A model generated the notes under the pieces. The model did no database searches, was not told where the DNA came from, and saw only the letters and a program-made list of their open reading frames with translations. Shown here in pieces: positions 3,390-14,589 of a stretch of 64,000 bases of DNA (position 1 is its first letter; each line of letters opens with the position of its first letter). A program made the translations under genes and the position numbers. The DNA is from an uncultured Pirellulaceae bacterium (GTDB lineage: Bacteria; Planctomycetota; Planctomycetia; Pirellulales; Pirellulaceae), in assembly GCA_937967505.1 (NCBI GenBank), contig CALCJM010000076.1, forward strand, positions 1-64,000, given 5' to 3'.

Positions 3390-4592
3390 TCATACTTGGG
3401 CTTGGAGGATCTGGCTGTGAGCGTACAACAGGTCTTCGGCCGCGTCGAACAGGTGGACCAACAGCGCCGCCCGCGCCCACATTCCATTGCGGGCCTGCCG
3501 AAAATAGAGGGCGCGCGGGTCGCGATCGATCTCGGTGGGGATCTCGCCCACCACGCGGTCACGCGGGAAAGGGTGTAGGATCGCAGAAAACGATTTTAAC
3601 TGATCGACGCGCAGACGCGTCAACCGAAACGGTTCCAGATCCATTTCCGCAAGTTCCGCTTCGGTTTCAGGAGAATTGTGCTCGCGCTGAATGCGCGTCA
3701 TGTAAACACTGTCAGCCTGCGCCAAAACGGGTTGGCCATCGCAGGTTTCATCCAGACTGTCGAATTGTCGGACATCGACACCGCTGGCAATCAGGCTGGC
3801 CTCCAGTTTTTTATCCAGTCGCAACGTGTCGTGATCCGGAGCAACGAAGAACATCCTGACGCCCGGATACTGGGCCAGTACCGTCGCCAGCGAGCGTACG
3901 GTTCTCCCCCGTGCGATGTCCCCGCAAAACAGATACGTTTTTTGCTGGGGACCGGAAACCAAATCGGGGTACTCGCGTTTCAACTGGCTCAACCGCGAAG
4001 ATTTTTGCGTTGACGCCTCGGAAAACCGGAAGGTGCGATAGATCGTATACATGTCCAACAATGCCTGAGTCGGGTGTTCGTCCGCCCCCGCACCGGCGTT
4101 GATGATCGGCACCGAGCGCTGTTCGGTCTCTTCGAGATCGTTCATCATATAGGCGCAAACCTCGGCGAATTTTTCCACTTGCGATCGCATGATGATCACG
4201 TCAAAGTAACTGCTGAACATACGAATCGAGTCGGTTTGCGATTCGCGTTTGACCTCCGAAGAAGTTTTCGGGTCGCGCACTTCGTTGCAGGTGATCCCTA
4301 GGATTTGGCAGGCCGCCATAAAGGACAGAAACGTCCGGGTTGAGGGTTGAGTAAAGTACAGCATGGCGCGTTTGTGAGCCAACAGTTCCCGGAGGCTGCG
4401 GTGACCTTCGACGGTGCGCGCCATGGTGCGGATCGTGTCGGCAGACCGGCACAGTTTCTCCAACAGGGGAACATTCAACTGCGAACCGAAGATAAGGTGC
4501 TTCAGACGGCCATGCCGTTGGAAATCGACGACTTTGTCGGGAGTCGGACGTTCAAGACGTTCGTTAAAAGGCGAGAACAGGTCTTCGGTCAT
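3390..4592 (-). CDS. pyrB: aspartate carbamoyltransferase
   Basis: This is aspartate carbamoyltransferase, catalysing carbamoyl phosphate plus aspartate to N-carbamoyl-aspartate in de novo pyrimidine synthesis. The carbamoyl-phosphate loop is FTQPSTRTFLSF (STRT near residues 84-87), the second signature is DEHPTQALLD (HPTQ near 173-176), and a downstream HPFPR corresponds to the aspartate-domain loop. I start at ATG 4592 (MTEDLFSP), giving 400 residues. The ORF runs to 4766, but those extra residues are not conserved-looking. The length exceeds the roughly 310 residues of the short class and fits longer forms found in several phyla. No pyrI or pyrC is adjacent. Confidence 0.93.
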   Translation of the reverse strand: MTEDLFSPFNERLERPTPDKVVDFQRHGRLKHLIFGSQLNVPLLEKLCRSADTIRTMARTVEGHRSLRELLAHKRAMLYFTQPSTRTFLSFMAACQILGITCNEVRDPKTSSEVKRESQTDSIRMFSSYFDVIIMRSQVEKFAEVCAYMMNDLEETEQRSVPIINAGAGADEHPTQALLDMYTIYRTFRFSEASTQKSSRLSQLKREYPDLVSGPQQKTYLFCGDIARGRTVRSLATVLAQYPGVRMFFVAPDHDTLRLDKKLEASLIASGVDVRQFDSLDETCDGQPVLAQADSVYMTRIQREHNSPETEAELAEMDLEPFRLTRLRVDQLKSFSAILHPFPRDRVVGEIPTEIDRDPRALYFRQARNGMWARAALLVHLFDAAEDLLYAHSQILQAQV

Positions 4593-4999
4593 GGCAATGA
4601 GGCATCCGCAGTTGAATTTTTTCCAATGATACCCAATCGATCCAAAAGATTGAAGGAGTCCGCTGGCGGAAACCACTCCACAACGCCGCACGGGCATCAA
4701 AGCTGTCGCAACAACGATCACCGCACACCTTCTGTTGAAGGAAAAAACGATGCTTCCGACGCTCAAGATTTTGATGCACCAACGGCACCCAAGCTCTCAA
4801 ATCTCCCACAATAAAAAGAGGGCCGCAATTGACTTGCGGCCCTTTGCTGGACGGTTCAGACGTTACGTTTCCGGTGGCCTGATCGGGCCACTCAAAAAGA
4901 CCAAGTTGAACGACTTCTCTCCCGGCTGATCAAACGGCCGAAACACAACTGGCCAAAACACAACTGGCCGAAGCGAATTTGGCCAGCACGAATTCGAGT
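4593..4999. other. intergenic region with terminator
   Basis: This gap of about 400 bp separates the S41 protease stop from the pyrB start. It contains the terminator hairpin at 4819-4843 and otherwise no convincing gene. The pyrB promoter should lie between 4593 and about 4810. Confidence 0.4.
4811..4843 (-). terminator. rho-independent terminator after the S41 protease gene
   Basis: A perfect 10-bp stem (AGGGCCGCAA at 4819-4828 paired with TTGCGGCCCT at 4834-4843) has a 5-base loop. On the minus strand it is followed by C and a run of five T. It lies downstream of the protease gene ending at 5000 and upstream of pyrB. Confidence 0.8.
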
Positions 5000-11174: not shown

Positions 11175-11384
11175 ATGCAAGAACAAAGTCTATTGGGATA
11201 CGCCTTGGTACTAGTGCTGATTTTTCTGGGCTTCTTGGTGGTTTGTCTGCCTCGTCCACGCGGAATCGCATTTGAAAGCGAGGAAGCCGAAGAGAAGCAC
11301 ATGAAGCGTCTCAAAAATGCGCAAGCCAAGAAGAAAAAATCGCGGAAGAAAAAAGGCAAAAAGAAATCGGCCAAGAAAAAGTGA
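11175..11384 (+). CDS. small membrane protein with Lys-rich tail
   Basis: The 69-residue protein has an N-terminal TM helix (LLGYALVLVLIFLGFLVVCL), a charged linker (ESEEAEEKHMKRLKNAQ) and an extremely basic C-terminal tail of lysines with Ser/Arg. The tail would sit in the cytoplasm and could contact nucleic acid, ribosomes or acidic lipid (inference). It starts 80 bp after hisS, and its stop overlaps the GTG start of the next gene, so the two are translationally coupled. No named family recognised. Confidence 0.65.
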   Translation: MQEQSLLGYALVLVLIFLGFLVVCLPRPRGIAFESEEAEEKHMKRLKNAQAKKKKSRKKKGKKKSAKKK

Positions 11385-11827
11385 ACCAGCCCCAATCAAA
11401 TCGCTATCAAAATTACTGCCGAGGGCTTATTGGCCTGGTCGGGGTCGGTTTGATGCTGGCGACCGTGGCTGTGTTCTTTCCCGTCAGCGTGATGGCCGCT
11501 TGCCACAGGTGGCTGGGGCTGGGGAATTTTCCCGATGCCCCAATCACGATCTACCTGGCGCGATCGACCAGTCTGATGTACGCGATGCATGGGACGGTGA
11601 TGTTCTTCGTCGCCTGGAACTATGACCGCTGCCACGCACTGGTTCCACTGATTGGTGGATTACACGTTTTACTGGGCGTCGCGCTGATCGGTGTCGATCT
11701 TAATGCCGGCATGCCCCTCTACTGGACTGTAGGCGAGGGACTCCCAATCGCGATGGTTGGCGGAGCAATCTTGTGGCTATTTGGTCGATCGTCGCCGACG
11801 AACAAAGGCCAGTCCTCCAAGGCTTAG
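11381..11827 (+). CDS. four-TM hypothetical membrane protein
   Basis: GTG start at 11381 overlaps the preceding stop (GTGA). The 148-residue product has about four hydrophobic segments (LIGLVGVGLMLATVAVFFP, SLMYAMHGTVMFFVAW, LVPLIGGLHVLLGVALIG, GLPIAMVGGAILWLFG), so it is an integral membrane protein. No catalytic motif seen; family unnamed. Its last 51 bp overlap, on the opposite strand, the end of the PEP-CTERM gene, so the C-terminal residues of both proteins are encoded by the same DNA. Confidence 0.7.
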   Translation: MNQPQSNRYQNYCRGLIGLVGVGLMLATVAVFFPVSVMAACHRWLGLGNFPDAPITIYLARSTSLMYAMHGTVMFFVAWNYDRCHALVPLIGGLHVLLGVALIGVDLNAGMPLYWTVGEGLPIAMVGGAILWLFGRSSPTNKGQSSKA

Positions 11828-12805
11828 AAGCATTGCGAAAGATGACGGTTCGGGAACGGCAGCAATCACGATGTTGTCGATGGCAACGTAGGCCGGGACA
11901 TCGCTGAAACTACCAAAAGCAAAATCGCTGACCTGACTCGAAGTTGTCGCAATAGCAAGTGAGCGTGAAGGGCTCAATCCACCAAGGTCCAGCGTTTGCC
12001 ATTGATCCAGAAAAAATCCGTCGTCAAAGTTGGCGAGATCCAGTTCTACCGCGCCCGTCACGCTGCCGGTCGCATTTTCTCCTGCGTACCCCGTAATCGT
12101 CAAACGGAAGAAGTCACCGGCGTCGAATTGCTGATTGGCATCGAAGTCTGAAACGGGTGAAGGTGCGGGGTTAAACGAGCTATCGACCCCATCAAGTCCA
12201 GCTTGGGTGAAGCGTTCCACGAATGTGGTGTTTGCCACGTCAATGGAAACCAGTGAGGAGTCTTGCTCGAGGTTAAGCACAGCGGCTGTCAGGGGCCGGC
12301 GGACCCCGTTGGCGTCATCTACCGCAGCAACATCGGATTGAGTGAATGCGATCGCATACGTTTCGTTTGCGACGGTTGCTCCGGTAGAAGCCGAAGCGCC
12401 TCCCCCGGGAAAAGCAGCATATTGATTGACGAACCCCGGCGTTGTGGGATCGACCACATTCGAGACAGCAAACCCGCTCCAAAAACTGAAAAACGGTGCC
12501 TGAGTGAATTCGTTACGCAATGAAACGGACGCCCCGGGGTTGCCAACGGTCGCCGATTGCGTGAAGACAGTGCCGGCGCCCGGGTCGGTCGGGTCCGATG
12601 GCGCCGAAGTCCCTGTAAACAGTGGGTTGGCTGATGCATTAAACATCGGATCGCCATCGTTGAAACTGTTTGTCGAAGGAAGCAACGATTCGAAATCGAT
12701 TATCGTTTGGGCTACGCTCGTGCCGGTGGTCATTGCCACAATTCCTGCAACGACCGTGGCAATCAGGGTTGTAGAAAAGGCGCTGCGTGGATTCGGATTG
12801 ATCAT
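11777..12805 (-). CDS. PEP-CTERM protein with DUF4465-like core
   Basis: The 342-residue protein has a signal peptide (LIATVVAGIVAMTTGTSVAQ) and an extracellular beta-rich core. Its motifs match what I know of DUF4465: IDFESLLP, FFSFWSGFAVSN, DPTTPGFVNQYAAFPGGGA, NETYAIAFT. The C-terminal sorting signal is VPEPSSFAMLLSLGGLAF plus RRRR (PEP-CTERM), recognised by an exosortase and directing surface attachment or release. It lies 56 bp downstream of the DUF1559 gene and, by inference, is under the cobalamin riboswitch ahead of that gene. A role in binding or handling cobamides at the surface is plausible but unproven. Its 3' end overlaps a convergent gene by 51 bp. Confidence 0.85.
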   Translation of the reverse strand: MINPNPRSAFSTTLIATVVAGIVAMTTGTSVAQTIIDFESLLPSTNSFNDGDPMFNASANPLFTGTSAPSDPTDPGAGTVFTQSATVGNPGASVSLRNEFTQAPFFSFWSGFAVSNVVDPTTPGFVNQYAAFPGGGASASTGATVANETYAIAFTQSDVAAVDDANGVRRPLTAAVLNLEQDSSLVSIDVANTTFVERFTQAGLDGVDSSFNPAPSPVSDFDANQQFDAGDFFRLTITGYAGENATGSVTGAVELDLANFDDGFFLDQWQTLDLGGLSPSRSLAIATTSSQVSDFAFGSFSDVPAYVAIDNIVIAAVPEPSSFAMLLSLGGLAFVRRRRSTK

Positions 12806-12861: not shown

Positions 12862-13740
12862 TCAAAAGTCGTTGAAGACTTCCCCGGAGGCTCGAGTGCA
12901 GATTGCACCGAGGGTATACAGTTCCATTTCCTCAGGAAGAAACCTGACGTGGCCATCGGCGAAACTCCCGTTGGCTCCCCCAGGATGGTTGCTGCGGATA
13001 TCGTTTTCAAATGCGGGGGCTGCATTGATCGCAAAAGCTTGGTCAAAGACATTTCGTCCATTGATCCATTGTCCGTCACTAAAGTTACTGTCCTCCGCAA
13101 CGATCAGCGTGTTCGAGGACCCGTCGGTCACATCGGCGATTCGAAAAGCTTGATCAAACACCATCATTCCCTTGGGGGGAGTGTTGGGGCTGTTAATGCG
13201 TTCACCAAAAATACCGCCGTAGTCTGAGGGGCCGCGCGTTGATTCGACTCGGTCCCTTGAAGACGGGCAAATAAATGTTGCGATCGACGTGGCTGCTGCT
13301 TCGGCGTTGTTCGGGTGGTCAAAGGGAAGATTCAGATCCAGTTTTGAAAACACGTTTTGCTGATCTAAAAATGGCAGCAGGTATACGGACCAAGCCAAAT
13401 TCTTGAGGTTAGGATCACCTCTAAAGAACGGCCTTGCTTCAGTGACGCCTTGGGGAAACTCCATTTTGGCACTGTGGTGGTTTTGGAGTGCCAGCCCAAT
13501 CTGTCTGAGATGGTTTGCACAGGTGATCCGGCGCGCCGCTTCACGTACTTGCTGGACGGCCGGCAAAAGCATCCCGACCAACACGCCAATAATGGCGATC
13601 ACGACCAATAACTCGACCAACGTAAACCCTAAAGATGTACCCTTTGCACATCGATGAAGTGGGGGCCCTCCCGTGACAGGGCCGTGCTGTTTGGCCCGTA
13701 GCGGCAGGCGCATATTTTTCTGGTCAAAAAAACGTCGCAT
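12862..13740 (-). CDS. DUF1559 prepilin-like protein
   Basis: ATG 13740 ([13 protein letters not shown]) is chosen because the ORF further upstream runs through the riboswitch; GAGGAAA lies upstream. The 292-residue product has a type IV prepilin/type II pseudopilin N-terminus ([20 protein letters not shown]) cut before Phe by prepilin peptidase, and the DUF1559 body ([30 protein letters not shown]). It ends with the H-X9-DG signature ([17 protein letters not shown]). DUF1559 proteins are highly expanded in planctomycetes and are thought to be pseudopilin-like surface components. First gene after a cobalamin riboswitch, followed by the PEP-CTERM gene. Confidence 0.9.
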
Positions 13741-13795
13741 GGAAAAATTGTTTCCTCGATGCGCTCGTCCCTCGCAGAGCGGATACCGAAAATGA

Positions 13796-14008
13796 ACAGG
13801 CAGGTATTCTGACTTCCTTCTGGTCCGTCGCCGCAACGTGCAGTCGAACGAACAGAGTGGATCCGCCTTCTCACTCGACTTTCTTTTGAAAGCCGGGCAA
13901 TGGCTTGAGATGGATCCTGACGCGAAGGTTACAGCGGCGGGGCCGTGACGGAATTGCACCGAACTTCCCTTTAATTAGTCTGCGAGAGTGCAGACCAATC
14001 ACCTGTCC
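13796..14008 (-). promoter_or_regulatory. cobalamin (vitamin B12) riboswitch
   Basis: Read on the minus strand, the conserved B12-aptamer elements appear in the correct order. A 5' GGTG segment (about 14000-14006) comes first. Then comes the core at 13927-13973, reading AAAGGGAAGTTCGGTGCAA followed by TTCCGTCACGGCCCCGCCGC and TGTAACC. The 3' B12 box AGTCAGAATACCTGCC is at 13799-13814. This is the RF00174-type arrangement. A CGCTC/GAGCG stem lies between the B12 box and the ribosome-binding site and could form the expression platform. It controls the DUF1559 gene starting at 13740 and probably the PEP-CTERM gene after it; repression by cobalamin is expected. Confidence 0.93.
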
Positions 14009-14589
14009 ACTGGAGCCAATAAACTATCAAGGCTTCAAAATTTGTCCATGACCTAAAACCAGTTTCGCGCGGCGAACTGCCCAAAGTTCGGTTCGCGCCC
14101 TGCACTACTCGCGTTTCACCTGCAAAGCCCAATCCCGCGGCCGTGGCGGCCGAGCCGAAAAGCGTGCATCACCATGCCACCACTGCGGACCATCGAAGGC
14201 GAATTGGAGTTTTGCCACACCGAACAAGCTGATCGAGAGGTCATCACGCTTGTAAAGTTGCCCGGACAAATATATGGGTCAATATTTGGCTAATTACCTT
14301 GGGTGAATAGTGAAAAAGTGTGTTGCAGCACGGAATTTCGCGGTGGAATCGAGGTTAATCGTAAAAACATCCCCTTTATCGTTAACTATTACTCTGGTAG
14401 GGAAGTCCATTCTCTGGCATAATCCCCCGCTTTTCAGCAAGAAATCCGCTCCATAGCAACACTTTGAGCCCCAATCGACACGGGGCAGGGTATGGAGCCT
14501 CGATGCACGATGCCACGATTTAGCGATCCCACCCCCACAGCGTGTGATCCTCCGGAGCGACAGGCATCCATTTATATAAAGGAGACGGT
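14009..14589. other. divergent intergenic region
   Basis: About 580 bp separate the start of the cobalamin riboswitch from the epimerase-like gene on the plus strand. Both promoters should be here. I see no ORF and cannot place a confident -35/-10 pair. The plus-strand gene has a strong ribosome-binding site (AAGGAGACGGT) at its end. Confidence 0.4.

Follow-up and report, generated by a model that had tools for sequence, protein, structure and literature searches.

The closest described relatives of the locus analyzed here are BtuJ1 and BtuJ2 from Bacteroides thetaiotaomicron and D5EK51 from Coraliomargarita, which have the same DUF4465 domain, and by prediction the same fold, as one of its two proteins. 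BtuJ1 and BtuJ2 are exported and are encoded in cobalamin-riboswitch loci of B. thetaiotaomicron (PMC13398666, PMC12751083). Cobalamin binding is reported for eight divergent DUF4465 proteins, including one from Mucisphaera calidilacus, as is a crystal structure with B12 in addition to the BtuJ1 and BtuJ2 structures (PMC13398666, 2026); the main text of that paper contains none of the strings planctomyc, PEP-CTERM and DUF1559. BtuJ1 and BtuJ2 are lipoproteins from loci with other Btu genes, whereas the protein described here carries a PEP-CTERM tail and is paired with a pseudopilin. TonB-dependent uptake by BtuBG has the purpose that we propose for the present unit, cobamide capture at the outer surface under riboswitch control. 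The unit differs from both Btu systems in that its host genome gave 0 matches to the TonB plug, in an assembly (88.94% complete) whose missing contigs might conceal one.

The second protein belongs to the planctomycete DUF1559/H-X9-DG family, described as of unknown function (PMC10632474), with 68 copies in Planctopirus limnophila and 74 in Rhodopirellula baltica (PMC10632474, PMC2754498); the passages on the family in these two papers give no tested function. It shares PF07596, N_methyl and HX9DG with that family and falls within a distinct riboswitch-linked clade. It resembles type II secretion pseudopilins and type IV pilins in its prepilin cleavage motif and its long N-terminal helix, but unlike those systems the unit consists of two genes without an assembly ATPase or secretin gene. 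The parts are thus known, and the combination is one for which we found no report: a literature search conducted mostly outside subscription journals returned no description of a riboswitch-DUF1559-DUF4465 arrangement.

The window is a 64,000-nucleotide stretch of DNA from an uncultured Pirellulaceae bacterium, and the features of the unit within it are as follows.

13782 to 14021, minus strand: cobalamin riboswitch aptamer (RF00174), full length (positions 1-189 of 189)
13736 to 13763, minus strand: candidate expression platform, a hairpin in which the Shine-Dalgarno-like GAGGAA and the start codon (ATG) of the first gene are base-paired
12862 to 13740, minus strand: DUF1559 (PF07596) pseudopilin-like gene, 292 aa, 175.4 bits
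13564 to 13629, minus strand: prepilin N-terminal cleavage/methylation segment (PF07963, 24.2 bits; TIGR02532, 23.7 bits)
12937 to 12996, minus strand: H-X9-DG C-terminal motif of the DUF1559 protein (TIGR04294, 37.5 bits, cut-off 19)
11777 to 12805, minus strand: DUF4465 (PF14717) secreted protein, 342 aa, predicted to bind cobamides (102.8 bits, cut-off 25)
11789 to 11860, minus strand: PEP-CTERM sorting tail of the DUF4465 protein (PF07589, 23.3 bits, cut-off 20.7; TIGR02595, 23.6 bits)

The first-pass annotation recognized the aptamer by eye at 13799-14006 on the minus strand and proposed a covariance search, which confirmed it across the full model at 74.0 bits (E 2.3e-16) against a gathering cut-off of 31.5. 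It is the sole Rfam match above cut-off in the window, and the host genome (G000; 5.03 Mb, 183 contigs, 88.94% complete) has a single match to RF00174 and a single match to DUF4465, both at this locus. The DUF1559 gene most likely starts at the ATG at 13740, which follows GAGGAAA 42 nt from the aptamer end, and not at 13959, from where the mechanical frame extends into the aptamer; its stop is at 12862. The DUF4465 gene lies 56 bp downstream on the same strand, and we count two genes in the unit because the next sizeable frame (11381-11827) sits on the other strand. Control of both genes by the riboswitch is predicted with high confidence.

The hairpin at 13736-13763 has an 11-bp stem and a modest fold (-9.5 kcal/mol, z -1.78, with 10 of 200 shuffles folding equally well), which is suggestive of an expression platform; the longer fold, of 116 nt, does not surpass shuffled sequences (z -0.06). 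A simple scan of the minus strand from the riboswitch to the second gene found no terminator-like site. Given a riboswitch immediately ahead of the first gene, a scan free of terminator-like sites as far as the second gene and a hairpin over the ribosome site and ATG, repression of translation by cobalamin is the likeliest mode of control predicted for the window unit. Across 69 loci, the aptamer-to-start distances, taken from a crude start rule, vary widely, with a median of 142 nt and 15 of them at 60 nt or less, and a run of five T precedes the start in 14 of the 69.

Both genes behind the aptamer had been named beforehand as prepilin-like DUF1559 and DUF4465-like PEP-CTERM, and the Pfam and TIGR scores bear out both names. 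The DUF1559 protein is above cut-off for PF07596, N_methyl and H-X9-DG; its similarity to GspG is weak (33.4 bits, cut-off 88.85). Its model predicts a helix at residues 8-59, while the C-terminal domain is modeled unreliably (mean pLDDT 54.5), so that we make no fold statement beyond the N-terminal helix; the best fold match is the type IV pilin 1ay2, a weak one at E 0.46. Against a profile of riboswitch-linked DUF1559 proteins, in which the window copy is itself a row, it scores 443.8 bits, and the next copy in the genome 228.9. One alternative to a pilin-like role is that DUF1559 itself binds cobamides, which would make the operon a pair of binders with no pilus-like function. The Pfam short name of PF07596 is SBP_bac_10, solute-binding, and PMC2754498 read the family in this way in 2009; the helix is also followed by a large C-terminal domain, and the linked copies conserve segments such as DYGGIYG and GQWIN. 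The prepilin signal, the H-X9-DG tail, the long N-terminal helix and the pilin as best fold match, weak as it is, argue against this alternative, and we consider it unlikely.

The DUF4465 protein is related much more clearly to proteins of solved structure. A profile of the window protein and 35 relatives, drawn from the named-genome scan described below, matches 9hmu (E 1.7e-48) as well as 9qpm, 9fct, 4jqr, 4e9k and 9i2l, over an E range of 1.7e-48 to 1.8e-18. The predicted structure (pLDDT 74.5) superimposes on BtuJ1 with Z 22.7 and rmsd 2.8 Å over 215 residues, with the first chain outside the DUF4465 family at Z 9.4, and Foldseek matches it to 9hmu at E 3.9e-13; the model thus places the window protein in the augmented β-jellyroll fold of BtuJ1 and D5EK51. 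The HI-loop tyrosine (Y245 of BtuJ1), reported as conserved in 97% of homologues (PMC13398666), is retained as Tyr306 in the segment SDVPAYVAID, similar to SGVPSYLALD in D5EK51. DE-helix Tyr146 of BtuJ1 aligns with Phe195, which keeps the ring and loses the hydroxyl and is a caveat here, and the window copy, at 104 bits in the genome survey, is among the lower-scoring members of a family in which others reach 200 bits. From alignment and model together, the window protein very probably binds cobamides. Two exosortase matches (PF09721, 173.7 and 112.9 bits) accompany its PEP-CTERM tail in the host genome. The first-pass annotation had regarded a DUF4465 PEP-CTERM gene under a B12 riboswitch as an oddity; that puzzle largely resolves because the DUF4465 family binds cobalamin (PMC13398666), and the pseudopilin is the remaining new part in need of an explanation. 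A search of viral_contigs with one pattern found no DUF4465 relatives.

The survey for such pairs behind cobalamin riboswitches, also proposed beforehand, was run across the order Pirellulales. DUF4465 is present in 90 of 246 genomes and RF00174 in 222, and all DUF4465 places of the scan were taken as 96 stretches, with Rfam run on each. A riboswitch lies upstream on the same strand at 86 of the 96 loci, so the link exceeds chance. The order riboswitch-DUF1559-DUF4465 is found in 69 of the 96, with DUF1559 called by a profile built from 35 of these operons, and L141, where a second (core) model detects a riboswitch core at 39.9 bits, is a 70th. The riboswitch directly precedes DUF4465 with no DUF1559 between them at 17 loci, six of which have a member of the linked DUF1559 clade downstream; DUF1559-DUF4465 occurs without a riboswitch at six loci, and four have neither. 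Contig ends cut six of the ten riboswitch-less loci (L075, L079, L084, L086, L094, L122), and three that are not so cut (L103, L144, L156) gave no riboswitch with the second model either. A simple pattern finds a PEP-CTERM-like tail in 71 of the 85 proteins with one DUF4465 match. Larger proteins also occur: open frames of 1810-2027 aa in G113, G180 and G216 have three DUF4465 matches, and Rhodopirellula maiorica SM1 encodes, behind a riboswitch core and DUF1559, a 2015-aa protein (L292:2898-8945) that combines a DFAVFEN-type domain with DUF4465 domains, of which three were counted by eye.

With 38 to 84 DUF1559 matches per genome in five genomes, the pseudopilin gene might be a passenger, a chance neighbor kept by descent, and related genomes are not independent witnesses. 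DUF1559 nonetheless makes up roughly 1% of genes (from 38 matches in a genome of 5 Mb, with the gene number estimated), as against 69 of the 86 riboswitch-DUF4465 loci, and the linked copies form a separate clade. Among the 157 sequences of the tree, a single clade with 110 tips holds all 75 copies upstream of DUF4465 and none of the 30 background copies, which were the best-scoring PF07596 copies of the five genomes and not a random sample. It also includes 27 copies from riboswitch loci without DUF4465, six from downstream of DUF4465 and two from another order of the class. Support is 0.57 for the whole clade and 0.974 for a nested clade of 108 tips with 74 of the 75 linked copies. The tree was built from profile envelopes, and its length filter excluded L174, L175 and L213 from the 39 riboswitch-only copies. 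When 8 genomes were searched with a profile of 20 linked copies, the top match was the linked gene in all 8, of which G000 and G216 supplied rows to the profile and the other six did not; the lead is small in G006 (264 versus 233 bits) and G081 (250 versus 210 bits). The motif DYGG-x-GER occurs in 45 of the 75 copies upstream of DUF4465 and in 0 of 30 background copies; as a marker of the whole clade it was rejected, being absent from all 27 riboswitch-only members. The recurrence of the same clade at those 27 loci, and that of a different pseudopilin beside DUF4465 in another class (below), speak further against a passenger, which we regard as very improbable.

Riboswitches apart from DUF4465 were sampled as 60 loci from the best 150 RF00174 matches, among those not beside DUF4465 (about 110 by eye); the choice followed the ranking downward and avoided most contig ends, and thus leans to strong matches. 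A DUF1559 gene lies downstream on the same strand at 39 of the 60, as the first gene except at L206, where it is second. At the other 21, the first long frames encode the large subunit of ribonucleotide reductase (eight), MetE (three), a TonB receptor (three), a PF01497 binding protein (one), DUF6580 (one) and exported DFAVFEN-type or other PEP-CTERM proteins (three), with two unclear or cut. The usual B12-regulon genes are led by 15 of the 60 riboswitches, and first genes that are largely the expected B12-regulon members support counting DUF1559 among the genes of that regulon. Ten riboswitch-locus copies of DUF1559 fall outside the clade; one (L218) is on the other strand and hence not riboswitch-led, and nine are riboswitch-led (L160, L165, L167, L168, L169, L178, L193, L210 and L214). 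Since these outside copies also stand first behind cobalamin riboswitches, more than one DUF1559 subgroup may be under B12 control.

Several neighbors at these loci are of interest in themselves. At L167 (1927-3549) the riboswitch and a DUF1559 gene of another subgroup are followed by CobQ (Pfam), and L210 is alike by sequence. At the clade loci, the genes behind DUF1559 often encode exported proteins for which Pfam finds only PEP-CTERM or dockerin motifs (ten proteins scanned). One such unnamed exported family, WGYRW (L190:1721-2680, L186:1581-2516, L212:2489-3445), has profile matches at 15 of the 60 loci, three of them the profile seeds, and no Pfam family beyond a sub-threshold dockerin in two proteins scanned. 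The DUF6580 membrane protein that is the first long frame behind the riboswitch at L163 (1289-1903) is possibly a component of a B12 transporter. Conventional BtuB-like TonB-dependent receptors lie directly behind the riboswitch at L218 (566-2662), L197 (645-2636) and L159 (907-3141), and a PF01902-like sequence was seen by eye after the DUF1559 unit at L215.

The named-genome scan found 421 relatives, from which 79 DUF4465 loci were kept. A riboswitch core lies upstream at 64 of the 79, the weakest at 25.8 bits, and 9 of the 15 without one have less than 1.2 kb upstream. Among 21 records titled Pirellulales, Planctomycetaceae or genera and strains that we assign to that class, in which we presumptively include strains CA13 and K23_9, in part on a contig match to G216, DUF1559 is upstream in 19 at 232-408 bits, the lowest (L312, 232 bits) being no better than the best background copy (230); the two without it, L266 and L268, offer no more than 409 and 667 bases of preceding sequence. 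Relatives with a unit of this kind include Rhodopirellula maiorica SM1 (L292), strain K23_9 (L310) and Roseimaritima sediminicola (L284). Records titled Phycisphaerae, Phycisphaerales or Sedimentisphaerales have DUF1559 upstream in 0 of 18, and a pseudopilin of another type downstream of DUF4465 in 16 of the 18 (45-70 bits); the two checked, from L281 and L314, match Pfam N_methyl without PF07596. The order at L314 is riboswitch, DUF4465, DFAVFEN protein, pseudopilin, PF01497, PF00005 and PF01032 (281 bits), the last three forming a BtuFCD-type transporter. The association of pseudopilin and DUF4465 in two classes argues for a function, though not for any single mechanism. Only 1 of 23 records titled from other phyla, L339 of Verrucomicrobia, has a pseudopilin neighbor, so DUF4465 needs no pseudopilin in general. 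The remaining 17 of the 79 records carry no class name, and titles of assembled genomes may err. Mucisphaera calidilacus, the source of one cobalamin-binding DUF4465 protein, we take to be a planctomycete. A phylum-wide sample found DUF4465 in 11 of 392 genomes, and of its 8 new loci seven have a riboswitch and the eighth begins at a contig end.

An unnamed exported family with the motif GYDFAVFENGF (for example L281:5790-6905 and L314:5852-6976) has profile matches in 57 of the 79 named DUF4465 loci, two of them the profile seeds. With its DFAVFEN profile, a portion of BtuG1 in 8blw is recovered at E 4.5e-4, and the family is a candidate cobamide binder. Among other exported families compared with solved structures, two single proteins gave dockerin-like or unrelated matches only and one gave none. 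In the verrucomicrobial record L339, a PF01902-type ATP pyrophosphatase (4022-4831) stands before DUF4465.

The first-pass annotation had offered two readings of the unit, that B12 status tunes surface architecture or that a surface machinery helps acquire cobamides. PEP-CTERM proteins and pseudopilins both belong to the surface or envelope, and some giant proteins contain three DUF4465 domains (L292), as would suit a unit that remodels the cell surface for attachment or biofilm by B12 status and takes no part in uptake. DUF4465 is however a cobalamin-binding family (PMC13398666), the neighbors include BtuFCD (L314) and CobQ (L167), each in a single relative, and 15 of the 60 other riboswitches of the order lead usual B12-regulon genes. 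Remodeling without uptake is accordingly improbable, and the evidence has no need of the tuning of surface architecture. The acquisition reading is favored in its place: DUF4465 binds cobalamin, the pair recurs behind riboswitches, and L314 adds BtuFCD.

The host genome encodes MetH, the B12-dependent methionine synthase (416 bits), and has no match to CobS at 88.94% completeness; its FecCD matches are weak, the best at 34 bits and none of BtuC grade. This fits a cell that needs B12 but lacks the customary outer-membrane receptor, with the absences weak at 89% completeness. In the order, 59 of 90 DUF4465 genomes have no Plug match. An order-wide avoidance between DUF4465 and the TonB Plug was rejected (Plug in 31 of 90 DUF4465 genomes versus 62 of 156 others, p 0.50), while within the window's family avoidance is seen (8 of 23 versus 19 of 26, p 0.010, uncorrected for kinship). 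Because it is confined to that family, replacement of BtuB by the unit stays a hypothesis.

Since the trio recurs in many relatives and the family of the surface protein binds B12, the window unit is probably a B12-repressed, cobamide-scavenging operon with a dedicated pseudopilin. When cobalamin is scarce, the riboswitch would permit both genes to be made, presumably from one transcript. The DUF4465 protein would be exported, sorted to the envelope by its PEP-CTERM tail and bind cobamides in the manner of BtuJ. DUF1559 would be processed as a prepilin and become part of a dedicated short pilus or pseudopilus, which might display DUF4465 on a short fiber, export it, or feed or move it inward. 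The pseudopilin is likely to take part in acquiring B12, whereas any specific mechanism, be it display, secretion or uptake without BtuB, is tentative at best. In a more far-reaching and rather doubtful version, riboswitch-controlled DUF1559 would carry or retract cobamide binders, namely DUF4465 and the unnamed PEP-CTERM families, across the outer envelope in planctomycetes without BtuB and so replace the TonB step.

If that pseudopilus route is true, a subfamily within the large, orphan DUF1559 family gains a function. Through the riboswitch this subfamily acquires both a ligand that would regulate it and a biochemically characterized partner, which makes its role directly testable. The unit offers one possible explanation of how planctomycetes that need B12 but have no BtuB capture cobamides, and it marks further uncharacterized exported families as candidate B12 binders.
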